A stretch of DNA of 64,000 bases, taken from Chromatiales bacterium. Lineage in GTDB: Bacteria; Pseudomonadota; Gammaproteobacteria; Thiohalomonadales; Thiohalomonadaceae. The notes beneath the pieces were generated by a model, which was not told the origin of the DNA, did not search any database, and worked only from the letters and a program-made list of their open reading frames with translations. The stretch spans positions 1 to 64,000 of the forward strand of contig QKFD01000073.1 of NCBI GenBank assembly GCA_003251535.1. Reading direction: 5' to 3'. Both the position numbers and the translations under genes were made by a program. This document shows positions 6,666 to 14,133 of this stretch, piece by piece. Position 1 is the stretch's first letter, and the number at the start of each line of letters is the position of its first letter.

Positions 6666-8003
6666 ATGAGCCACATCCTCATCGTGGAAGATGAAGCGAT
6701 CATCCGCAGCGCCTTGAAGCGGCTGCTGAAGCGCAACGGTTACGAGGTCTCCGAGGCGGGCTCGGTGCAGGAGGCGGAGGGCAGACAGCCGCTGCGCAAT
6801 TTTGATCTGGTGATCACCGATCTGCGCCTGCCGGGCGAGCCAGGTACCGCCCTTATCGACAAGGCGGCACCGGTGCCGGTACTCATCATGACCTCCTATG
6901 CCAGCGTCAACTCGGCGGTGGAGTCGATGAAGCTGGGGGCGGTGGACTACATCGCCAAGCCGTTTGAGCATGAGGAGCTGCTGCTGGTGGTGGGGCGCAT
7001 CCTCAAGCAGCAGACCCGCGAGCGCCAGGTGGCGGCGCTCAAGTCGGAGCTATCCCAGAGCTATCCGGTGGGGGGGATGATCGGCCGTTGTCCGGCGATG
7101 CTGGAGGTGTTTGGCCGCATCCGTAAGGTGGCCCCCACCGACGCCACGGTGCTGATCCTGGGCGAGTCGGGTACCGGCAAGGAGCTGGTGGCGCGGGCGG
7201 TGCATGAGAATAGCCCACGCAAGGAGGCCCCCATCATCGCCGTCAACTGCGCCGCCATCCCCGAGGGGTTGATCGAGTCAGAGCTATTTGGCCATGAGAA
7301 GGGGGCCTTCACCGGCGCCGTCGGCACCCACCGCGGCCTGGTGGAGGCAGCCGATGGCGGCACCCTGTTCCTGGATGAGATTGGCGAGCTGCCGCTGGAG
7401 GCACAGGCACGGCTGCTGCGGGTGCTGGAGGAGGGGGAGATCCGCCGGGTCGGCTCCACCCAGTCGCGGCGGGTAGATGTGCGGCTGGTGGCCGCCACCC
7501 ACCGCGATCTGCAACAGCTGGTCAACGACCGGCAGTTTCGCGGCGATCTCTACTACCGCCTGCACGTGATGGAGATCCGCCTGCCACCGCTGCGGGAGCG
7601 GGGCGAGGATATCCTGGAGCTGGCCCGGGTGCTGCTGGAGAAGAGCTGCCGCCGCCTCAATCGCCCCCCCATGGCCTACAGCCCCGAGGCGCTCGGTCGC
7701 CTCACCCAATACCACTGGCCGGGCAATGTGCGGGAGCTGGAGAATGTGATCGAGCGGGCGGTGATCCTGGCCGACGGCGTGGAGCTGGGCGCCCACCTGC
7801 TACCGCTCGATGCCACCCCGCAGCGCCCGGCGGAGCTGACCGGTGAGCCGCCGGCCAGCGAGTCGTTGGAGGAGTACTTCCGCCGCTTTGTGCGCGAGAA
7901 CGAGGGCAACATGACCGAGACCGAACTGGCCAAACGGCTCGGTATCAGCCGCAAGACCCTCTGGGAGCGGCGCCAACGGCTGGGGGTACCGCGCGAGCGC
8001 TAA
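6666..8003 (+). CDS. cbrB: CbrB-like sigma54-dependent response regulator
   Basis: The 445-residue protein is a full NtrC-family activator. Residues 1-115 form a receiver with Asp52 as phosphorylation site ([12 protein letters not shown]). The central AAA+ domain carries Walker A GESGTGKE and the sigma54-contacting GAFTGA loop. The C-terminal Fis-type helix-turn-helix includes [20 protein letters not shown]. The start at 6666 is chosen because the receiver begins there with [10 protein letters not shown]; an upstream in-frame start at 6549 would lie inside the kinase gene. It follows the kinase by 58 bases and is its obvious partner. In Pseudomonas CbrB activates sigma54 promoters such as that of crcZ; the target here is unknown. 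rpoN is at 32264. Confidence 0.88.
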
Positions 8004-8093: not shown

Positions 8094-10370
8094 TTAGTTG
8101 GGGGCGATAGGCCGATGGTCACGCCGCGCCGCCCGCCACTGCTCCCACCCCAGCAGGAGCACCGGCAGCAGCACCAGCTCCAACAGCTGACCGGTCAGCA
8201 GCCCGATGGCGGCCAGTAGCCCATAGTGGGCGGTGGGCTGAAAGTCAGAGAGGGTGAGGAGCAGAAACTGGCTCACCAGCAGTAGCGAGATGGCCACCAC
8301 CGCCCGACCCGATAGCTCAAAGCTCCGCATCAGGGCAGACACCGGCGCCACCCCGCGCCGGCGCCGCCAGAGGTAGGCGTGGAGGAAGTGGATGGTGTCA
8401 TCGACAGTGATGCCGAGCACCACGCTGGCGATGAGGACGGTGGCGGTGTCGAGGTAGATGCCTGTCGCCCCCATCACCACAAAGACAAAGTAGAGCGGCG
8501 CCAGGTTGGGGATCATGCCGATCACCGCCACCGCTAGTGAGCGCCACAGCAGCAGCAGCATGAGGAAGATCTGGCCAAAGGCGCCGAAGAAGCTCCAGAC
8601 CTGCCCCTCCACCAGCTGGTCCTCCAGATCGGAGAAGAGCCGGCCACTGCCGGCCACCTGCCAGCGGATGGGTCCCGGTTCTAGCGCCAGCTGCGCCTCG
8701 ATGCGCTCGATCACCCGCTGGATGGCGTTGGCGCCGTGGACCCGCAGATAGATGAGGATGCGGGCGTGGCGGAATGGCCGGTCCACCAGCTCCGCCAACT
8801 CCCGCCCGTCGTAGAGCAGTAGCAGCTGGGCGAGCTGGGCGTCGTTGGCCGGCAGCTGCTGCGCCGCCGCCTCGCTGCCGCTGAATGCCCCGTGCAACAC
8901 CTCCACCAGATCTACCAGGGAGAGGGTGCGATCCACCTCCGGCATGGCCGCCACCGCCTGCTGCACCCGCGCCAGCTGACGCAGCGCTGTGAGCCGTTGT
9001 AGATCACCGGCGGCGGGCGCCGTGGCCACCAGCTCCAGGGTGGTGATCCCCTGCAACTGCCCCTCCACTAGGCGAGTGGAGCGGTTGAGGGGGTGGTGGG
9101 CACTGAAGAAGGCGAGCAGGTCCGACTCCACCTCGATGCGCAGCAGCAGCGGGGCGGCCAGCAGGGAGCCCAGCAGGGTGACCGCCACCACCCGCCGCCG
9201 GTGACGCAGGCCGAAGCTGGCCAGTGCCAGGGCGATGTGGCGCGCCCAGCGCAGGCCGCTGCGCCGCCCCGCCCGGGGGTGCCGATCCCAGGCGATGAGC
9301 AGTGGCGGCAGCAGGTGGAACACCACCCCGTAGATGGTGAGGGTGCCAACCGCAGCGGTGCAGGCGAAGGTCTGGATGGGGGGGATGGGGACCAGCAGCA
9401 GGCTCAACACCCCGGCGCTGGTACTCAGTACATTGAACAGCGCCGGCTTATGCACCTCGGCCACCGCCCGCAGCACCCGCTCCCGCCCCGCCAGCGTGCG
9501 CCGGCCGCTCCGCTCCAGGGCAGAGTAGAGGTGGAGCAGGTTGGCCACGGTGTAGGCCAACAGCAGGGTCGGCAGCATGGCGGTGACCAGGGTGTAGGGC
9601 TGGCCGAGGGCGCCGAGCAGACCGAGCGCCACCGCCTCCACGGTGCCGATCCCCAGGATGGCGATGGCCACCGGTACCCAACGGCCGACGATCCAGTAGA
9701 GCAGGATCAGACCCAGGCCGCCGATGATGGGGGTAAACAGGGCGGTGTCGCGCAGGATGGAGCGCAGCTCGGCGGTATCGAGAGCCACCAGACCGCTGAC
9801 GGCGCTGAGCTGGTCACTCAACCCCGCCGCCGCCACCGCCTGGTAGAAGGCGCTCTCCAGCGCCTGCCGCTGGGCGGTCCCCTGGAGCGGCAGCGCCCGC
9901 ACCACCACCGCCAGGCTCCGGCCATCGCGGCCCACCAGCCAACCGGGGGCGAAGCGATCTGCCAACACCGTCGCCCGCCGCTCCGCCGCGCTGGGCGCTG
10001 GGTCGGCCGTCAGGTCCACCAGGGGCCGCACCACTATCCCCTCCGCATCCCCCACCACCTGCTCCTGGCGGGTGATGGCAAATACCCGATCCACCATCGG
10101 CAGCTGCTCCAGCTGCGCCACCAGCCGGTCGATGGCCTGGAGTGAGGCGGTGGCAAACGGCGCCGGCGGGGTGAAGAGGCCGATGAGGGTCTGGTCCCCC
10201 GGGAAGCGCTCCCGCAACGCCTGCTCCACCCGGGCGGCCGGGGCGTCGGCGGGAAACCACAGCTCGGGGGCGTTGTTAAAGGTGATGCGCGGCAGCAGGA
10301 GCAGCGCCACCAGCTGGATGGCGATCAGCGCCCCCAGGGCGACCGCTAACGGCAGGCCCCCGGCGCGCAC
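8094..10370 (-). CDS. RND-superfamily (MMPL-type) exporter
   Basis: This 758-residue inner-membrane protein has the duplicated RND plan: a first helix (about residues 5-25), a large periplasmic loop, a bundle of about five helices, then the same order again. The conserved GITVDDTIHF segment in the second bundle marks the MMPL/hydrophobe-exporter branch rather than the AcrB drug-pump branch. The start is GTG at 10370, two bases after the stop of the upstream outer-membrane barrel gene, so the two are surely co-translated. No membrane-fusion protein or TolC is adjacent. Proteins of this branch often move lipids or long-chain hydrophobic compounds. With a barrel and an adenylate-forming enzyme upstream, export of an activated or lipid-like product is a reasonable guess. 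Confidence 0.8.
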   Translation of the reverse strand: MRAGGLPLAVALGALIAIQLVALLLLPRITFNNAPELWFPADAPAARVEQALRERFPGDQTLIGLFTPPAPFATASLQAIDRLVAQLEQLPMVDRVFAITRQEQVVGDAEGIVVRPLVDLTADPAPSAAERRATVLADRFAPGWLVGRDGRSLAVVVRALPLQGTAQRQALESAFYQAVAAAGLSDQLSAVSGLVALDTAELRSILRDTALFTPIIGGLGLILLYWIVGRWVPVAIAILGIGTVEAVALGLLGALGQPYTLVTAMLPTLLLAYTVANLLHLYSALERSGRRTLAGRERVLRAVAEVHKPALFNVLSTSAGVLSLLLVPIPPIQTFACTAAVGTLTIYGVVFHLLPPLLIAWDRHPRAGRRSGLRWARHIALALASFGLRHRRRVVAVTLLGSLLAAPLLLRIEVESDLLAFFSAHHPLNRSTRLVEGQLQGITTLELVATAPAAGDLQRLTALRQLARVQQAVAAMPEVDRTLSLVDLVEVLHGAFSGSEAAAQQLPANDAQLAQLLLLYDGRELAELVDRPFRHARILIYLRVHGANAIQRVIERIEAQLALEPGPIRWQVAGSGRLFSDLEDQLVEGQVWSFFGAFGQIFLMLLLLWRSLAVAVIGMIPNLAPLYFVFVVMGATGIYLDTATVLIASVVLGITVDDTIHFLHAYLWRRRRGVAPVSALMRSFELSGRAVVAISLLLVSQFLLLTLSDFQPTAHYGLLAAIGLLTGQLLELVLLPVLLLGWEQWRAARRDHRPIAPN

Positions 10371-10372
10371 CG

Positions 10373-11620
10373 TCAGAAACGGACCTCCCAGCCCAGGGTG
10401 ATGAGGTCGTTACGGGCGTAGTAGCCCCCCACGGTCTGCTCCGCCCCGCCAAACAGGTGGGCCGCCAGGGTGATGCGGTGGGGAGGGGTGCCGAGCCAGG
10501 CGATCTCCGGGTTGAGGTAGTGCTCCGGCTGGTCGATCCCCAGCAGAAAGCGGAGGTTGGCGCGCCAGCGGCCGTGGCCCAACGGCTGGGTCAGTTCGCC
10601 ATTGAGGTTGTAGCTCTCGGTGCGATCCAGCACCGCCACTCGGTTGTCGGCGCGATGGCCGGCCAGCTGGAGATTGACCCGGGTGTCGCCGTCGCCCGGG
10701 TGTAGCTCGATACCGGCCACCCAGTCGAGGGCCGGCACGGTGTGGTAGCGAAAACGCTTCCAGGCGGTGAGTGGCTGGTCGCTGCTCCAGGCCGCCTCTA
10801 GCCGCCAACAGCCGGCGGCCCACTCCCCCTCCAGCTCTGCCCCCAGCACGGTGCTGTAGGGGTAGATGGCGGTGAGCCGGCCGAGCGAGGCGCGGTAGTA
10901 GGGGAGCGACTGGCGGCTGCGTTGTAGGCTGAGGCCGTAGTCGAGGCCGGCGCCACTGGCGGTGAGACGCAGACCGCCACCGTGGCCGCCGGGGTCGTCG
11001 GGACGGATGTGGGCGCCGCGCACCAGCGGCATGGCACCGATGCCAAGCACCCGCCCCTGCTCGGTGTCGATGGGGAACCAGAGGCTATCGGCATTGGGGA
11101 GCCGCGCCGGCTCGAAGTGGGGCAGCCACACCGCATCGAGCTTATAGTCAGTGCCAAACTGCTCCAGCCGTAGCGCCGTCACCGGCAGCCGCCGCTGCGA
11201 TAGCGGATCCAGCAGCAGCCGGCGGAAATCGACCCTGGAGAGCCGATCACTGGGGGGCAGTTCGTAGACCCGTCCCCACAGCAGCTGTTGTGCCCCTATG
11301 GTGACCCGGCTATCGCTATTGCGCCAGCGCAGCAGCAGCTCCTCGCTATCGAGCCGCTGGGCCGTGAGGTCGTTCTCGCCCCCCTGCCAGCGCGCCTCCA
11401 GGCGCGCCCCGGCCACCGCCTCCCACGCCCCCAGTGTCAGCGAGCTGCGCAGCTGCCCGCGCAGATCCAGGGTACCGGCGGCCACCTCGGCGCGGGGGGC
11501 GATATCTAGCTCGGCGGCGAGGCTGGCCTGCTCCAGCCGCAGTTCGGCGGCCGAGGTGGCCACCGGCAACAGCAGGGTGGAGAGCAGAGCGGGGAGCCGA
11601 CGGCGCTGGTTGGGACTCAT
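10373..11620 (-). CDS. Outer-membrane beta-barrel protein, DUF1302-like
   Basis: The 415-residue protein has a signal peptide (LPALLSTLLLPVATSAAE, cleavage after SAA). It then shows alternating amphipathic strands and ends in WEVRF, a terminal aromatic residue as expected for the barrel-assembly signal. The segment IGAQQLLWGR, the later RLPVTALRLEQF and VWLPHFEPARLP follow the pattern of DUF1302/alginate-export-like barrels, which are often encoded beside MMPL-type RND proteins. It precedes the RND gene by two bases. It probably provides the outer-membrane step for whatever the RND protein handles. Assignment to the exact family is by motif pattern only. Confidence 0.72.
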   Translation of the reverse strand: MSPNQRRRLPALLSTLLLPVATSAAELRLEQASLAAELDIAPRAEVAAGTLDLRGQLRSSLTLGAWEAVAGARLEARWQGGENDLTAQRLDSEELLLRWRNSDSRVTIGAQQLLWGRVYELPPSDRLSRVDFRRLLLDPLSQRRLPVTALRLEQFGTDYKLDAVWLPHFEPARLPNADSLWFPIDTEQGRVLGIGAMPLVRGAHIRPDDPGGHGGGLRLTASGAGLDYGLSLQRSRQSLPYYRASLGRLTAIYPYSTVLGAELEGEWAAGCWRLEAAWSSDQPLTAWKRFRYHTVPALDWVAGIELHPGDGDTRVNLQLAGHRADNRVAVLDRTESYNLNGELTQPLGHGRWRANLRFLLGIDQPEHYLNPEIAWLGTPPHRITLAAHLFGGAEQTVGGYYARNDLITLGWEVRF

Positions 11621-11704
11621 GACGGGACATAGGGCGAGCGGTGCGCCATTATGCCGCAGCCACTGCGACCGCCCCAGCCTCCTCTCCCCCGCCGCCCCCC
11701 CTCC

Positions 11705-13225
11705 CTAACCGGGTGGGGTGGCGGGGCGCCGGGTGTAGCGGTGTTTCACCCCCGGCGGAAAGTGGTCAGGGTCCCCCAGGGGGCGCAGTACCACCTCCGG
11801 TGGCCGGTAGGCGGCGGGCACGTAGTGGGCATATTCGCTGTTGAGGTGACAGAGCTGCCGCTCCACCAGCTCGGCCAGGTGGGTGGCGCGTTGCGCGCTT
11901 GCCGCCTCCCCCGCCGCCAACTCCACCGTGACCCGCAGGCGGCGGTTCTGGTCCGCATCCTCCACCACCTCCAGCACAAACTTGCCGGTCACCCAGCCGC
12001 TCGCCTCGGGCTGCTCCAGGGCGACGCTGATGTTCTCTGGGTAGACGTTAGCGCCGAAGTAGGAGACGACAAACTGGCTGCGGCCAAATAGATAGACAAA
12101 GGGCAGCGGGTGGTGACCGCGCCCCTCCGCCCCCAACGCCGTGGCCGGATCAAAGCCGTGCGGGGCCAGGCGCGCCAGCAGGGTCGGGTAGTCAAACAGC
12201 CCCCCCCGATCGCCGATGTGGTAGCGCACCAGCGGCATCCCGTTGTCCCCGGAGAAGAGCAGGGTCCCCTCCCGCTGTTCAAAGTAGCGGCTGCGCGGGT
12301 CGTACTGCACCAGGGTGGGCAGGCGCGACTCGCCAAATAGCTCCCGCGCCAGCTCCGGCCGCGCCGCCAGAAAGCGGCGGATGGCGATGGAGAGGGGGGT
12401 CTCGTTGCCCAGCACACCGGCGTCGGCGGTGCCGTAGAGGGAGGCGGTGTCGCGCAGCGGATCGCGCCCCCCCATCCGTTCACCTACGAGATCCCGCCAC
12501 GCCTCGCTGAACACCTCACCCGCCATCACCAGTTTGAGGCGGTAGCGGCCCCAGTCGATGCCGCGGGTGCGACCGGCGTCGATGGTGTCTTTGAGGAACG
12601 GTGGGTAGCCCAGCAGCACCACCTGCTCATAGGCCGGTCCCAAACTCTCCACCGCCCGGAAGATCTCCTCCCGCTGGTTACCGGGTGTCACCACGCTGAT
12701 GGGGTAGCCCTTGGCCGCCAGGAGGCGGCAACACTGGGCGGTGAACATCCCCCCCACCCAGCTGCCGAGGGCGAAGCAGACCACGGCCAAGGTGGAGTGG
12801 CGATCGGCCGCGAAGCTGTCGTGGAAGATCTGCTCAAAGCGGGTGGCGATGGCCAGCTCATCACTCAGGGAGCGGAGCCAGGGGGTGGGGGTGCCGGTGG
12901 AGCCGGAGGAGAGCGCCACCATGTCGCAGCTCGTCGCCCGACCGTGGCGACAGCGCTCCGCCAGCGGGTAGCGCTGGACGTAGTTGCCCTTGTCCACCAG
13001 TGGCAGCTGCTGAAACTGCTCCCAACTCTCCAGCGCGGCGGGGTCGATCCCATGCTCGGCAAGAAAGGCGCGGTAGGCCGGCACCTCGGCCGCGGTGCGC
13101 CGGAAGTGATCCAGCAGCTCCAGCTCCGGGCTGCGGTTGGGGTCGCCGGCCAGGCGTAGCGCCAGCGGGGTGGTGAGGAACTGTTCAAAGGCGATCAGCA
13201 GCGCCCGCTGAGGCGTCTCGGTCAT
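11705..13225 (-). CDS. PaaK-like adenylate-forming enzyme
   Basis: The 506-residue protein belongs to the phenylacetate-CoA ligase-like branch of the ANL superfamily. The phosphate-binding loop reads LSSGSTGTPTP, the later YGTADAG and YHIGDRGG match adenylation motifs, and a small C-terminal domain follows (FVLEVVEDADQ onward). The start at 13225 (MTETPQRALL) has AGGAG seven bases upstream; an in-frame start at 13333 would overlap the preceding gene. It would activate a carboxylic acid as an acyl-adenylate and perhaps transfer it to CoA or another acceptor. No acyl-carrier protein, ring-epoxidase or other phenylacetate gene is near, so phenylacetate degradation is unlikely. The context with barrel and RND suggests a biosynthesis or export role. 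Confidence 0.75.
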   Translation of the reverse strand: MTETPQRALLIAFEQFLTTPLALRLAGDPNRSPELELLDHFRRTAAEVPAYRAFLAEHGIDPAALESWEQFQQLPLVDKGNYVQRYPLAERCRHGRATSCDMVALSSGSTGTPTPWLRSLSDELAIATRFEQIFHDSFAADRHSTLAVVCFALGSWVGGMFTAQCCRLLAAKGYPISVVTPGNQREEIFRAVESLGPAYEQVVLLGYPPFLKDTIDAGRTRGIDWGRYRLKLVMAGEVFSEAWRDLVGERMGGRDPLRDTASLYGTADAGVLGNETPLSIAIRRFLAARPELARELFGESRLPTLVQYDPRSRYFEQREGTLLFSGDNGMPLVRYHIGDRGGLFDYPTLLARLAPHGFDPATALGAEGRGHHPLPFVYLFGRSQFVVSYFGANVYPENISVALEQPEASGWVTGKFVLEVVEDADQNRRLRVTVELAAGEAASAQRATHLAELVERQLCHLNSEYAHYVPAAYRPPEVVLRPLGDPDHFPPGVKHRYTRRPATPPG

Positions 13226-13293
13226 AGCTGCACTCCTGGGAATGGGCAGGGAGGGGCGATCCTGGACCGCCCGCCCCGCCCCTGCCAACCACC

Positions 13294-13974
13294 TTAACGC
13301 AGGATCTGCGCCGCCCGCGCCCGCTCCACCCACTCCGGCAGCTCGTTGAGCAGCCGCTGGTAGAGGGCGTCATCCGGCAGGGTATCGATGTCGTCGGCGT
13401 GCATGAAACCGGCGTTGTCCACCAGTCGGCCGCTTAGGTCATCCAGCTTGCGGAGGAAGGGGAAATCCTCCCGGCCGATGCCGACAAACTGGATGAAGAT
13501 GGGGTGCTCGGCCAGGCTGCGGATGATCGCCTCGCTCTCCCGCTTATCGGAGTTGTTGCCATCGGTGATGAAGATGACAAACACCGGATCACCGCCCGCA
13601 CCGACGTACCGCCCTTGGATCAGCTCCAGTGGCGGGGCGTAGCGGGTCGCCTCGTTGATACGGTAGTTGGCCAGGATATCCCGCTCCACATAGCCCTCAA
13701 ACTCCTCCAGCGTCACCGCCGGCAGGCCATAGGCGCGGGTGCCGAACAGCACGACATCGATACGGCCATCGTCATCGAGGTTGAGGGCGAGGGCGAGCAG
13801 CCGCTCGATCACCCGTTGCACCACCCCGGAACGGTAGAGGCCATTCATCGATTTGGAGATGTCGAGCACCAGCACCACCTGCGCCTTGAAACCGGCCAGC
13901 GGCGCCATGGCGGCGGAGCTTTCAAGCCGTTTACTCAGGTCGATGATGTGCTGTTTAGTGAGATGGACTGCCAT
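13294..13974 (-). CDS. von Willebrand A domain protein, TerF-like
   Basis: The 226-residue protein is almost entirely a vWA domain. The metal-ion-dependent adhesion site is intact (LVLDISKSMN, with DxSxS; FITDGNNSD later supplies the conserved Asp). There is no signal peptide or membrane helix, so it is probably cytoplasmic. It resembles the vWA type of TerF and tellurite/stress proteins. The start at 13974 (MAVHLTKQHI) follows GGGGAAG; a longer in-frame start at 14052 adds an unlikely basic peptide. It heads the minus-strand set with the ligase-like gene 68 bases downstream. Its partner is unknown; vWA proteins usually assemble or regulate a larger complex. Confidence 0.72.
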   Translation of the reverse strand: MAVHLTKQHIIDLSKRLESSAAMAPLAGFKAQVVLVLDISKSMNGLYRSGVVQRVIERLLALALNLDDDGRIDVVLFGTRAYGLPAVTLEEFEGYVERDILANYRINEATRYAPPLELIQGRYVGAGGDPVFVIFITDGNNSDKRESEAIIRSLAEHPIFIQFVGIGREDFPFLRKLDDLSGRLVDNAGFMHADDIDTLPDDALYQRLLNELPEWVERARAAQILR

Positions 13975-14133
13975 ATCTTCCCCCTGTTGGTTGGCTCGCT
14001 TGAGAGACCCGCGGCGGGCCGCACAGACCCAGAACGGATAGTGCAATGACATAAAATGGGTCCGCCGCCTATGGTACCGATGCCCCTAGGGCGCTATGTT
14101 GACGCCCCGCGTTGCCCCGGAGATAGCTCAAAG

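Follow-up and report, generated by a model that had tools for sequence, protein, structure and literature searches.

A conserved outer-membrane barrel and RND pump gene pair in a Chromatiales bacterium, a candidate transport half of a split lipo-amino-acid export module

The window, the whole stretch of 64,000 nucleotides analysed here (GenBank assembly GCA_003251535.1, contig QKFD01000073.1), was found to carry four consecutive minus-strand genes, called as open reading frames, for a vWA protein (positions 13974-13294), a putative ligase (13225-11705), an outer-membrane barrel (11620-10373) and an RND pump (10370-8094). The coordinates and the intergenic gaps, which are exactly 68, 84 and 2 bases, reproduce those of the original prediction, which was made from the sequence alone. 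On one side of the block lies a convergent gene for a sigma-54 response regulator that ends at 8003, on the other a divergent thioredoxin-like gene that starts at 14056, and as both flanking genes lie on the opposite strand, the four genes form a true directon. Plausible Shine-Dalgarno sequences were found upstream of the vWA, ligase and RND starts, and none was found at the start of the barrel gene. A terminator scan returned 2 sites, against 1.9 expected by chance, both within the ligase gene, and revealed no convincing terminator in the intergenic gaps of the block. Given these terminator-free gaps, co-transcription of the four genes is possible. A sigma-70 promoter for the barrel gene in the 84-base gap was considered and rejected; CATAAT is present there with no good -35 element, and the promoter scan was negative. 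A plasmid origin of the block was likewise rejected, the sole DNA match being to the ligase of Nonomuraea.

The vWA protein (226 aa; 13294-13974, minus strand) is a lone domain of the TerF C-terminal type, matching the vWA-TerF-like family PF10138 at 6.8e-66 (222.7 bits, cut-off 29.4). It has this C-terminal vWA domain in common with TerF, but lacks the TerD-type N-terminal part and is located outside any ter cluster. Among 397 other genomes of the phylum, 4 have homologues (E<=1e-15), all of them domains inside frames of 418-454 aa; over all homologues other than the window protein the frames span 418-503 aa. The genome itself encodes one more homologue, a 485-aa TerF-like protein that is 38-41% identical to the window protein. 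This longer protein is housed in a Ter-like cluster (G000:C26:1-12100; L126) that includes several vWA genes and genes for TerD-like proteins.

The ligase (506 aa; 11705-13225, minus strand) is a putative acyl-adenylating enzyme of the PaaK fold, identified from motif alignments and a Foldseek search. Its predicted structure is confident (pLDDT 81), and the best Foldseek match was to PaaK1 (2y27; 8.7e-19, TM 0.62/0.72). In the family alignments (A3 and A4), SSGSTG and YGTADAG are invariant, and GVKHRY and a lysine are conserved near the C-terminus. The enzyme thus shares its fold and core adenylation motifs with the PaaK phenylacetate-CoA ligase family, but differs from it in sequence (~16% identity over the structural alignment), in length (~500 aa versus 430) and in the absence of accompanying phenylacetate genes. 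Matches to the PaaK sequence models were weak and none of the PaaK equivalog cut-offs was reached (TIGR02155, 29 bits versus 646); the earlier description of the ligase as PaaK-like is borne out at the level of fold.

A scan of a genome collection recovered 203 relatives of the ligase, and the best 80 of these 203, nearly all cyanobacterial, were taken with up to 10 kb on either side. Nothing resembling the barrel, the RND pump or the vWA protein was found at E<=1e-5 in these best 80 of 203 loci. The only frequent neighbour among them is a Ser/Thr-kinase-like gene. This gene, annotated by eye, is on the opposite strand near the ligase gene in 53 of the 80 loci, mostly in Nostocales. The ligase is rare in the class to which the window belongs, with two clear matches in 56 genomes including its own, and in the other ligase-bearing genome (G040) it is located beside different genes. 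Because none of the 80 loci shares a barrel, pump or vWA gene, the ligase appears from gene neighbourhoods to be a stand-alone, mostly cyanobacterial family and to behave as a stand-alone gene. No relatives were found in viral contigs, and a viral origin of the ligase was rejected. A clear horizontal transfer from cyanobacteria was not established; the window sequence is weakly placed in the tree, on a long branch.

The RND pump (758 aa; 8094-10370, minus strand) is of the MMPL type, as originally assigned, with a match to PF03176 at 2.3e-14, and is probably an HAE3-type pump. Its best match in NCBIfam was TIGR00921 (HAE3) at 1e-30, under the curated cut-off for that model. A motif alignment of its ortholog group, the window protein included, revealed that the Asp in TM4 is absent while the 'VDD' in TM10 is kept, which leaves the group with a single acidic site where two are usual. 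Three RND paralogues encoded in the same genome have an acidic residue in both TM4 and TM10.

The barrel (415 aa; 10373-11620, minus strand) was assigned as an outer-membrane beta-barrel and a remote relative of DUF1302 from its family alignment (A2) and its predicted structure, which is a beta-barrel of moderate confidence (pLDDT 67) with matches to porin/AlgE-type folds. The earlier DUF1302-like label holds only indirectly, through the family, in which 4 of 8 members match PF06980 and which aligns to a DUF1302 paralogue at 94% in hhalign, although the window barrel itself misses PF06980. A YdbH-like match, under the cut-off and in one family member only, was discarded. Many relatives of the barrel carry an N-terminal SPOR (L120, L121, L123, L124 and L205) or LysM (L204) domain, and neither domain was found at the N-terminus of the window barrel or of those in G126 and G339. 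SPOR and LysM domains bind peptidoglycan in known proteins, and the outer-membrane part may be peptidoglycan-anchored in the relatives predicted to bear them.

A search with the barrel profile (A2) covered 369 class genomes and gave 12 matches that rank as strong homologues (E<1e-140), the window barrel among them. An RND orthologue was located within a few kb of the barrel gene in all 11 outside genomes, usually directly adjacent to it, and the window barrel, a member of the A2 family, adjoins an RND gene of the same ortholog group. Since the RND gene accompanies the barrel gene in 11 of 11 outside genomes, comparison of gene order indicates that the two are a conserved pair and belong together. 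The pair is part of a larger module in these relatives. A LolA_like gene (PF17131) was present in 10 of the 11, the exception (G376) being cut at a contig end, and a ThiF gene was also present in 10, the exception by blast being G080. In the nearest relative (G126), whose barrel and RND proteins are 49% and 53% identical to those of the window, ThiF, LolA, barrel and RND genes follow in a row.

Genes matching the N-acyl amino acid synthase model TIGR03694 were found in 48 of the 369 class genomes but in 8 of the 11 module relatives, and in those 8 the distance to the barrel gene was always 49-4,437 bases (Fisher p 6e-6 for the association, uncorrected for kinship among these mutually related genomes). 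A FeeM-type synthase takes the place of TIGR03694 in G165 and G276, and no synthase was found within the stretch fetched from G085. The FeeM-type N-acyl amino acid synthase in G165 (L123:342-1583) is fused to a cNMP-binding domain, for which a NAS-PilZ fusion (PMC4897644) offers a comparison. XrtA/PEP-CTERM genes, among them those for an exopolysaccharide export protein and a chain-length determinant, were also found at several module loci. A link between N-acyl amino acid synthases and the PEP-CTERM/exosortase system has been described (Craig et al. 2011, as cited in PMC4897644), and the relatives of the window pair resemble that system in their closeness to TIGR03694 genes and in often lying beside XrtA genes. 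The window differs from it, with no TIGR03694 match in the genome and no synthase at the locus.

The module is split in the window genome, where the locus lacks LolA and ThiF genes as well as a synthase. One PF13444 protein is encoded on another contig, and as the assembly consists of 130 contigs at 95.6% completeness, a synthase gene could sit in a gap. Two short frames in this genome (G000:C85:75121-75567 and C112:39660-40091) gave exosortase matches, one modest and over the family cut-off, the other under it. Among six LolA_like genes in the genome, one on the same contig, ~58 kb from the barrel gene (C1:69872-70684), encodes a protein 50% identical to the LolA of G126 versus at most 32% to its paralogues in the same genome, and was therefore identified as the LolA orthologue of the module. 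As synthase and ThiF genes are missing from the locus and LolA is ~58 kb away, the window pair is best read, on comparative grounds, as the transport half of a split lipo-amino-acid export module.

The reading that we moderately favour makes the barrel and the RND pump the two membrane components, outer and inner respectively, of an envelope lipid exporter, with the ligase and the vWA protein as unrelated neighbours in the directon. Driven by the proton motive force, the RND pump would extract an amphiphile from the inner membrane and pass it to a LolA-like carrier in the periplasm, from which the barrel would either deliver it to the outer membrane or let it through to the outside, with the distant LolA presumably still serving the window pair. 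MMPL/HpnN proteins are lipid transporters, and it is from these and from the like-built AmeABCD system that we infer this mechanism, with its energy source and direction of transport. The cargo is suggested to be an N-acyl amino acid by the position of the orthologues beside N-acyl amino acid synthase genes, an argument from gene neighbourhood, and the window pair could have gained a new one.

The combination of an RND pump, a LolA-superfamily protein and a DUF1302-type barrel is of an already known kind. AmeABCD of Castellaniella defragrans, the parts of which are co-expressed, joins an HAE3 RND pump to an outer-membrane barrel of the DUF1302 type and a periplasmic protein from the LolA superfamily (PMC6394551), an architecture that the module would share. 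It differs in that AmeB is a DUF1329 protein, a relative of the LolA superfamily, and in having a second periplasmic protein, AmeC; no such pair of periplasmic proteins is encoded in the window directon. AmeABCD also belongs to a monoterpene-metabolism locus, and its description mentions neither an N-acyl amino acid synthase nor ThiF (PMC6394551). In Thalassolituus oleivorans, TOL_3187/TOL_3188 similarly place an MMPL pump and a LolA-like domain beside a predicted porin, but there the LolA domain is fused to the pump and the set is tied to growth on long-chain alkanes (PMC6304351).

These likenesses raise the alternative that the pair serves tolerance to solvents or hydrocarbons rather than the export of lipo-amino acids, as deletion of the AmeABCD set lowered monoterpene tolerance (PMC6394551) and TOL_3187/TOL_3188 were raised on the n-C28 alkane (PMC6304351). 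This is considered unlikely, although it is the stronger of the competing explanations, as the orthologues lie beside N-acyl amino acid synthase genes and not hydrocarbon catabolism genes, and their RND proteins have a distinct motif pattern. If the module had been lost and the pair were its non-functional remnant, the missing synthase and ThiF genes and the displaced LolA would be accounted for, but this is very improbable given that both frames are intact, that the family-invariant barrel residues and the TM10 'VDD' are kept, and that the two genes are still translationally close.

According to the original prediction, all four genes form one operon and one pathway, in which a carboxylic acid activated by the ligase yields a product for export by the RND pump and barrel, with the vWA protein as a possible organiser or regulator. 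The perfect directon with its short, terminator-free gaps, an RND start only 2 bases past the barrel stop, and the nearly equal GC content of the ligase, barrel and RND genes (0.69-0.70) all speak for this, and 19 genomes of the same family, in which no ligase, vWA gene or strong barrel homologue was found, fit a joint acquisition. However, the GC content of the vWA gene is lower (0.627), and the affinities of the exporter are within the class whereas those of the ligase are mostly cyanobacterial. The conserved co-occurrence that the prediction called for was not seen either, as none of the best 80 of 203 ligase loci includes any of the other three proteins, and neither a ligase nor a vWA homologue was found within the stretches fetched around the 11 module loci outside this genome. 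A single pathway is accordingly improbable, and the ligase was rejected on synteny as a part of the exporter. The vWA protein was rejected as organiser because its relatives are TerF-type domains. On this comparative evidence, both proteins were judged to be neighbours that do not belong to the exporter, and the appearance of a four-gene pathway probably arose from the chance placement of these genes. What survives of the prediction is the proposed movement through the envelope by way of the barrel and RND pump, as a conserved pair but not as part of a four-gene pathway.

As a split copy beside unrelated genes, the window instance is mostly ordinary, and it illustrates that genes packed closely on one strand may look like a pathway without comparison bearing this out. 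The module in the relatives is the more interesting lead, where the recurring ThiF-LolA-barrel-RND set beside synthase genes is a candidate, open to deletion, for the route by which the synthase products would arrive at the outer membrane or leave the cell. Three further complete RND-LolA-barrel sets were identified elsewhere in the window genome (G000:C63, C31 and C121; L142, L143 and L144). The set on C63 includes a clear DUF1302 barrel and is located near a ThiF-family gene and a gene for a LuxR-type regulator with an autoinducer-binding domain.
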